Assembly (NCBI GenBank): GCA_030145205.1 | Contig: JAQYVZ010000006.1 | Coordinates: forward strand, 1 to 64,000 | Reading direction: 5' to 3' | Source of the DNA: Desulfuromonadales bacterium | GTDB lineage: Bacteria > Desulfobacterota > Desulfuromonadia > Desulfuromonadales > BM103 | Length of the DNA stretch: 64,000 bases | Shown here: piece after piece, positions 5,334 through 5,745 of the stretch | Layout: every line of letters begins with the position of its first letter | How positions within the stretch are numbered: the first letter of the stretch is position 1 | Program-made: the position numbers and the translations under genes | The notes under the pieces: generated by a model | What the model saw: the letters and a program-made list of their open reading frames with translations, nothing else | Told to the model about the DNA's origin: nothing | Database searches by the model: none

Positions 5334-5369
5334 CAAAAAAAGCGCCGTCACAGAAACTGTGACGGCGCT
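5334..5369 (-). terminator. Strong Rho-independent terminator of the selenoprotein gene
   Basis: A perfect 13-bp stem AGCGCCGTCACAG / CTGTGACGGCGCT (5341-5353 and 5357-5369) with an AAA loop. On the minus strand it is followed by a run of seven T. It begins about 24 bases after the stop of the IscA-like gene, confirming that the reading frame ends there and that transcription runs through the internal TGA. Confidence 0.92.
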
Positions 5370-5392
5370 CGCAACTCTTATAAGCGAATGGA

Positions 5393-5683
5393 TCAGCAAC
5401 AACCGCTGCTCAGCATCGGGGCAATCACGAACCCCTGACTGTGCTGCGTATCGACATAATCGATTTGGTTGCCATCCGTGAAAGGCATAACCTCGTCGGC
5501 AATCAGCAGATCAACTTCATTAACCGTATAACTTTTTTGATCTTCTTTCAGCTCTTCCAGAGCCAGCCCCAAGCGGGGACCGCCTCAGCCAAAGCCTTCG
5601 AACACGACCCGGAGAATTTTGCCCGGGTATTCTTTCATGACTTCCTTGAACTGGTCACGCGCTGCTTCACTAATTGTCAACAT
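5393..5683 (-). CDS. HesB/IscA-like selenoprotein (in-frame TGA = selenocysteine 33)
   Basis: A 96-residue A-type Fe-S carrier-like protein. Translation runs from ATG 5683, 7 bases after a perfect AGGAGG, through MLTISEAARDQFKEVMKEYP to a TGA at 5587-5585. It then continues in frame as GGPRLGLALEELKED and ends SSGCC at a TGA just before a strong terminator. The context FEGFG-U-GGPRLGLALEE fits the known HesB-like selenoprotein family of Geobacter-type bacteria. Sec33 takes the place of the first of three conserved IscA cysteines, and the C-terminal GCC supplies the others. An automatic gene finder would truncate this gene or miss it. A hairpin needed for Sec decoding should lie just after the TGA; candidates are at 5551-5578. 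A sequencing error or nonsense mutation is the alternative, but conservation on both sides of the TGA argues against it. Confidence 0.88.
5551..5578 (-). promoter_or_regulatory. Candidate bacterial SECIS hairpins downstream of the Sec TGA
   Basis: Two short hairpins follow the TGA in the mRNA. CCCC-GCUU-GGGG (5578-5567) begins 7 bases after it. GCUCU-GGA-AGAGC (5563-5551) begins 22 bases after it, with a loop that starts with G. The second fits the usual 16-37 base distance of bacterial SECIS elements. I cannot fold the RNA here, so which one, if either, binds SelB is a guess. Confidence 0.4.
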
Positions 5684-5717
5684 ATGCCCTCCTTTTAAAC
5701 TCGTTTAATTGTTTACA

Positions 5718-5745
5718 ATAATATTCATATATCTATAATTGTCAA
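5718..5745 (-). promoter_or_regulatory. Sigma-70-type promoter of the selenoprotein gene
   Basis: On the minus strand a perfect TTGACA (5745-5740) is followed, after a 16-base AT-rich spacer, by TATTAT (5723-5718). The predicted start of transcription is about 30 bases before the ribosome-binding site. The surrounding 50 bases are much more AT-rich than the neighbouring genes. No clear regulator box was recognised. Confidence 0.7.

Follow-up and report, generated by a model that had tools for sequence, protein, structure and literature searches.

A very probable HesB-like selenoprotein gene, interrupted by an in-frame TGA, in a Desulfuromonadales bacterium

Does a minus-strand reading frame that is interrupted by a single TGA encode a working protein, and if so, of what kind? 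The question arises at one locus in the window, as we call the whole stretch of 64,000 nucleotides that was analysed. The list of open reading frames, with its floor of 80 aa, holds no minus-strand ORF at this locus and gives only an 85-aa plus-strand frame. The original prediction read the locus as an IscA/HesB-like selenoprotein, and that reading is supported by the analysis below. The frame is open from an AGGAGG (5693-5688) to a terminator (5370-5340) except for one TGA, just as had been claimed, and the features of the gene are these:

5718-5745, minus strand: sigma-70-like promoter TTGACA-16-TATTAT, 11/12, overlapped by ATATATGAATATT
5688-5693, minus strand: ribosome-binding site AGGAGG, read from the sequence
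5393-5683, minus strand: putative coding sequence of a HesB-like selenoprotein, 96 residues with selenocysteine (Sec) at 33, ATG at 5683, stop TGA at 5395-5393
5585-5587, minus strand: in-frame TGA for Sec33, aligned with the first ligand Cys of A-type carriers, motif U-x-G-P
5396-5401, minus strand: codons for the only two Cys that follow Sec33 (Cys95 and Cys96), which occupy the place of the A-type C-terminal CxC
5340-5370, minus strand: intrinsic terminator, a hairpin plus a T-run, read from the sequence

Read through, positions 5683-5393 of the minus strand give MLTISEAARDQFKEVMKEYPGKILRVVFEGFG-U-GGPRLGLALEELKEDQKSYTVNEVDLLIADEVMPFTDGNQIDYVDTQHSQGFVIAPMLSSGCC-stop, in which the TGA at 5587-5585 is the sole interruption and the true stop is a second TGA. 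The local motif is U33-G-G-P, and the protein ends in Cys-Cys (residues 95-96). The promoter and the terminator together suggest a one-gene transcription unit. The gene is flanked by a divergent DUF3422 gene (483 bits) and by a GTPase gene (MMR_HSR1, 61.5 bits), which we take to be YlqF-like and which lies downstream, past the terminator, on the same strand. No Fe-S assembly gene was recognised adjoining the gene, nor among the neighbor clusters common to its relatives, which were unannotated and inspected by eye; Rfam gave nothing at gathering score near it.

The sequence on both sides of the TGA (FEGFG before, GGPRLGLALEE after) had been described as family-like, and profile searches agree. 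With Cys written for the TGA, the window protein matched NF038090 (IscA_HesB_Se) at 59 bits (E 4.4e-16; cut-off 85), TIGR01911 (HesB_rel_seleno) at 38 bits (cut-off 66.35), TIGR00049 at 42.6 bits (cut-off 58.8) and, above its cut-off of 26.3, PF01521 at 29.2 bits. Since the first two scores lie below their cut-offs, the gene falls outside the curated models and inside the wider published group only. Against the A-type equivalogs the protein scored 31.2 bits for ErpA (cut-off 117), 29.5 and 27.8 bits for SufA (161 and 136.2), and 21.4 and 18.2 bits for IscA (150.6 and 181). The read-through product aligns with HesB-like selenoproteins and also with A-type carriers, and in the latter alignment the TGA falls on the first cluster-binding Cys of IscA, where it had been predicted to lie; in the PDB alignments listed, the Sec position likewise lines up with the first Cys in each of SufA, HI1723, and AQ_1857. 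The fold is predicted to be of the IscA type. AlphaFold2, run on a 39-row alignment, gave a model with a pLDDT of 88.7 (below 50 for the last four residues) that matched E. coli IscA (1r94) with Z 11.5 and rmsd 2.7 over 94 residues, Allochromatium vinosum DsrR (2k4z) with Z 10.6 and 22% identity, and 2d2a_B with Z 9.8. DsrR, which has the IscA-like fold in common with the window protein, is a sulphur-oxidation protein without ligand Cys residues.

The 39 rows of this alignment are the window and 37 loci (38 sources), from 40 regions fetched. No row came from L100, where the gene seems to leave the contig, from L124, whose copy lacks a TGA, or from L121, a matchless 100-base stretch; the HesB gene in L042 also seems to run past the contig end. 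Row starts were picked by a simple rule, and L089, L108, L112, and L123 begin at an inner or wrong codon. With C for Sec, all 39 rows match NF038090 and TIGR01911 at E <= 0.001. GFGUGGP is read in 38 of them and GLGUGGP in one, against QGGU[SA]GP in the 27 main-clade Sec rows that were sampled.

A TGA in such a place could also mean that a nonsense mutation has broken the gene, or that a TGC or TGT was misread in sequencing; that there is a single TGA, and that it sits at a Cys position, fits these readings too. Its conservation does not. The closest relative, from the same genus and 79-80% identical, has the identical TGA. Of 22 genomes of the same taxonomic family, three give a match, all with a single TGA (identity 79% within the genus and 56% in a different genus). 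Across the order (Desulfuromonadales), 57 of 136 genomes match NF038090, and 53 of these 57 hold a TGA copy; the other four (G052, G096, G097, and G099) have only copies or fragments without the TGA. G098 and G102 are also among the few genomes of the order with HesB-type copies that lack it. Since other genomes conserve the TGA, a read error in the window genome cannot explain it. By a simple Nei-Gojobori count against the closest relative, dN/dS is ~0.08 on either side of the TGA (0.069/0.84 before it, 0.138/1.71 after it), so that the segment after the TGA is under the same protein-level selection as the segment before it.

A bacterial SECIS-like hairpin follows the TGA, and a second, shorter hairpin lies in the interval:

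5548-5566, minus strand: candidate bacterial SECIS hairpin with stem 22-28/34-40, numbered from the U of UGA
5567-5579, minus strand: short CCC/GGG hairpin between the UGA and the SECIS element, its closing pair doubly changed in 14/39 rows and unpaired in 9/39

The bacterial model set out in passages of PMC13188914 has a loop of 3 to 9 nt with a G in the first two positions, an upper stem of 4 to 16 bp, a distance of 16 to 37 nt from the UGA, and a free energy of -7.5 kcal/mol or lower. The geometry of the window hairpin agrees with this, with a 5-nt apical loop, UGGAA (5559-5555), G at position 2, and 25 nt from the UGA to the loop; the outermost pair, C22/A40, is unformed. Free energy alone is slightly weak, at -6.5 kcal/mol for the isolated 19-nt hairpin against the published -7.5 (-15.7 for the 42 nt after the UGA), and in the best RNAfold structure of the 48 nt from the UGA on, the region is paired differently from the SECIS model. 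Among the 39 rows, 94.5% of 273 stem cells are paired, compared with 15.8 to 48.7% after the partner has been shifted one to three columns, and four of the seven stem pairs are changed on both sides (18 cells). None of 500 shuffles reached the observed pairing, the double-change cells, or the covariation score; as many doubly changed pairs as observed arose in 35 of them, and as many pair types in 452. Kinship among the rows can inflate these statistics. The loop is UGGAN in 38 rows, with G at position 2, and UAGAU, with no G in the first two positions, in L095. Pseudogene and sequencing error were rejected on the conservation of the TGA, the selection after it, and this covarying hairpin, kept by paired changes; we regard them as highly improbable.

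The machinery for inserting Sec is in the genome, as had been asked of it: selB (401.7 bits), selA (601.4), and selD (368.5), all above their cut-offs, adjoin on one contig, selD carries its own TGA at the UxxK site (SGUAAK), and a tRNA-Sec with anticodon TCA scores 76.8 bits. A second tRNA-Sec match, of 77 bases, is barely above the gathering score (48.2 versus 47 bits). Throughout the order, selB is above the cut-off in 115/136 genomes and in 49 of the 53 with a TGA-HesB gene; the four in which no selB above the cut-off was found (G028, G055, G073, and G106) are drafts of 130 to 470 contigs, two of them rated 96-100% complete. Elsewhere, TGA can be recoded to other amino acids, and the in-frame TGA might be read as Trp or Cys in this way. 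We consider this very unlikely: TGA is also the final stop in 24/39 rows, the window's included, the genome has the full Sec pathway, and A-type carriers have a Cys at the aligned position. The reading of the final TGA as a second Sec codon was likewise rejected, given that TAA or TAG stands there in 15/39 rows and that the letters beyond look unlike, by eye, in L003 and L004. Very probably, then, the locus is a genuine gene, whose small product resembles iron-sulphur carriers and contains selenocysteine; its identity as a HesB-like selenoprotein is, as far as sequence can establish it, close to certain.

Proteins of this kind are already in print, and the kind is therefore known; the window gene is a new, divergent member. 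The presence of HesB-like selenoproteins in Geobacter-type bacteria, to which the original prediction appealed, is confirmed by the entry for Geobacter sulfurreducens in Table 3 of PMC1794560, a table that also gives Desulfuromonas acetoxidans; the UxGP motif of the group appears in the same paper and in Table 1 of PMC13188914. In a stop-codon survey, as described in part of PMC1914089, the HesB-like family was split in two clusters because its members were "too short and diverged." With the HesB-like selenoproteins of NF038090 and TIGR01911 the window protein shares fold, length, Sec at the first ligand Cys, and UxGP, but it scores below the curated cut-offs, and some members of its clade have a tail reduced to one Cys. 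With the A-type carriers IscA, SufA, and ErpA it shares the fold, the first ligand position, and a C-terminal Cys, but it has Sec for Cys, and its clade has CC or a single C in place of CxC. The HesB-like selenoprotein of Methanococcus maripaludis belongs to the same published family but is archaeal, and archaeal SECIS elements differ from bacterial ones (PMC13188914, in the section consulted). According to passages of PMC11097638, 75Se labelling and mutagenesis served to identify that protein; the paper describes its function as unclear and cites an unpublished observation that nitrogen fixation persisted when the gene was disrupted.

When 74 rows were placed in a tree, three A-type carriers split off from the 71 HesB-type rows, which clustered together (SH-aLRT 96, starred). 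The 39 rows of the order lie on one side together with one Cys-type row (L026), with a support of 87, which is below the starring threshold; since alignment columns are few, the inner forks of the HesB tree are unsure. An even sampling of the phylum gave NF038090 matches in 220 of 395 genomes, 167 of the 395 above the cut-off, and most among the matches listed have one TGA. The cut-off was passed in none of the 136 genomes of the order, where the best score was 74.7 bits with the stop left in place, and no HesB-type match was found in 79 of the 136, which makes the protein dispensable in the order. The lack of a match in 19 of the 22 same-family genomes likewise marks it as accessory and non-essential to the lineage. 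A scan of the contigs of the window genome with the window protein found no relatives; a second scan, built from the alignment, returned 14 loci, but its pattern had a Cys codon at the Sec position, so only Cys-type relatives were retrievable.

Canonical A-type carriers are nearly absent from the order. At E <= 0.01, PF01521 matched 30 of the 136 genomes, many of which are drafts; 29 of these matches are TGA-HesB, and a canonical ErpA-like carrier was found in a single genome (G075, 75 bits). In the control, 9/14 genomes were above the PF01521 cut-off. This search is blunt for Sec forms, since it missed at least 27 of the 57 HesB-matching genomes, the window's included, but an A-type carrier as near to PF01521 as that of G075 should still have shown. 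It follows from this near-absence that, in most genomes with Sec-HesB, no other IscA-family protein was found.

What, then, might the protein do? A-type carriers have three Cys ligands, with a C-terminal CxC. The window protein has no CxC, and its candidate ligands are Sec33, Cys95, and Cys96. All 39 rows have at least one Cys within the last 11 residues, and 13/39 have exactly one Cys after Sec, so that Sec plus one tail Cys is the minimum seen, below the three Cys of A-type carriers; other tails are richer in Cys (e.g., CGSSCGGSCG), some rows having three in an extended tail.

Upstream of HesB in 10 of the 38 sources, but not at the window locus, lies a gene for an FmdB-type zinc ribbon (TIGR02605, 45.7 bits; PF09723, 46.1 bits), whose end is 72 to 109 nt from HesB by the picked starts. 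Its C-terminus reads GFT-TGA-G-stop in nine of the ten and GFT-TGA-A-stop in one. A sweep of all sampled loci gave 17 distinct cases, these ten included, in 17 genomes and each upstream of HesB (L021-L025, L027-L029, L031, L032, L035, L040, L042, L046, L108, L109, and L123). The hairpin that follows the zinc-ribbon TGA has the loop [CA]GUN in 17/17; 88.2% of its 119 stem cells are paired, compared with 29.4 to 56.3% with a slid partner, and the outermost pair fails in 11/17. Six of the seven pairs are changed on both sides, a number reached in 3 of 500 shuffles; none of the 500 reached the covariation score, and 420 reached the number of pair types. The FmdB-type zinc ribbon ending in Sec-Gly or Sec-Ala is thus likely to be a second selenoprotein, as judged from its sequence. 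The FmdB selenoproteins described in parts of PMC2398784, PMC9312934, and PMC13188914 have Sec in CxxU or UxxU, in two sequences, and the FmdB of PMC11227280, from the portion consulted, is another protein; those portions of the literature on FmdB and zinc-ribbon selenoproteins that were searched hold no description of a zinc ribbon with penultimate Sec.

The best explanation of the window locus, and in our judgment a probable one, is a single-gene unit for a HesB-like selenoprotein in which Sec33, Cys95, and Cys96 form a metal or cluster site for transfer. The modeled IscA-type fold, the UGA aligned with the first ligand position, the covarying SECIS-type hairpin, and the complete Sec machinery all point to the selenoprotein. 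SelB bound to the hairpin would deliver Sec at the UGA, and translation would then stop at the second UGA. With much less assurance, we suppose that Sec33 and Cys95/Cys96 meet, probably, as in IscA, between different subunits of a dimer or tetramer, and that the selenolate/thiolate site may bind iron, an Fe-S cluster, or some other soft metal and pass it on; such a carrier would act in a lineage from which the usual A-type carriers are nearly absent. The role of Sec-HesB as a metal or cluster carrier is itself tentative, a plausible candidate that falls somewhat short of likely: CxC is absent, a single Cys follows Sec in 13/39 rows, and the tail is the poorly predicted part of the model. The main rival is a true selenoprotein that lacks an Fe-S cluster and serves in redox chemistry or metal(loid) scavenging, with Sec33 and a C-terminal Cys forming a selenenylsulphide pair. 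The reduction of the ligand set to Sec and one Cys in a third of the rows (13/39) is consistent with this, as is the position of the gene, in some relatives, close behind a zinc-ribbon gene seemingly ending in Sec-Gly or Sec-Ala; in the relevant part of PMC1794560, 15 of 17 Cys-to-Sec families are homologues of thiol redox proteins. The IscA fold and the placement of Sec at a cluster-ligand position argue against it, and the extended tails with three Cys in some rows look like metal binding, so we hold the redox role to be rather unlikely.

More speculative is a combination of the two genes, which we put forward as a doubtful but definite proposal: Sec-HesB could be a selenolate-ligated carrier in one pathway with the upstream-encoded FmdB-type zinc ribbon ending in Sec-Gly or Sec-Ala, in an order nearly without A-type carriers. 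It is chemically unusual for Sec to occupy a putative Fe-S ligand position, and the clade is a clean system for studying this, with short genes, a single-gene unit here, and competing A-type carriers almost never found. Used at their cut-offs, the family models would leave these HesB genes unnamed. The neighborhood, by suggesting a possible partner selenoprotein, makes the function testable.

Several further observations concern the surroundings of HesB genes. TTGACA followed by ATATATGAATATTAT or close variants is found at 5718-5745 in the window and upstream of HesB in L086, L087, L102, L105, and L110; this promoter-like stretch contains a small inverted repeat and is a possible operator. 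The 14-mer ATATATGAATATTA has a single occurrence in the genome at one mismatch or fewer, the window's own copy, and no regulon is therefore claimed. Tandem HesB pairs, in which a TGA copy and a non-TGA copy lie a few hundred bases apart, occur among the phylum matches listed (e.g., G305:C165, G252:C28, G223:C1, G149:C1, G346:C58, G518:C1, G408:C1, and G486:C57), and G107 and G108, of the same order as the window genome, have two consecutive TGA copies; such tandem copies hint at hetero-oligomers. Finally, a convergent two-gene block lies 3' of HesB in L088-L090, L092, L096, L107, L108, and L112, and partly in L093; judged by eye from the letters, it looks like the subunits of cytochrome bd.
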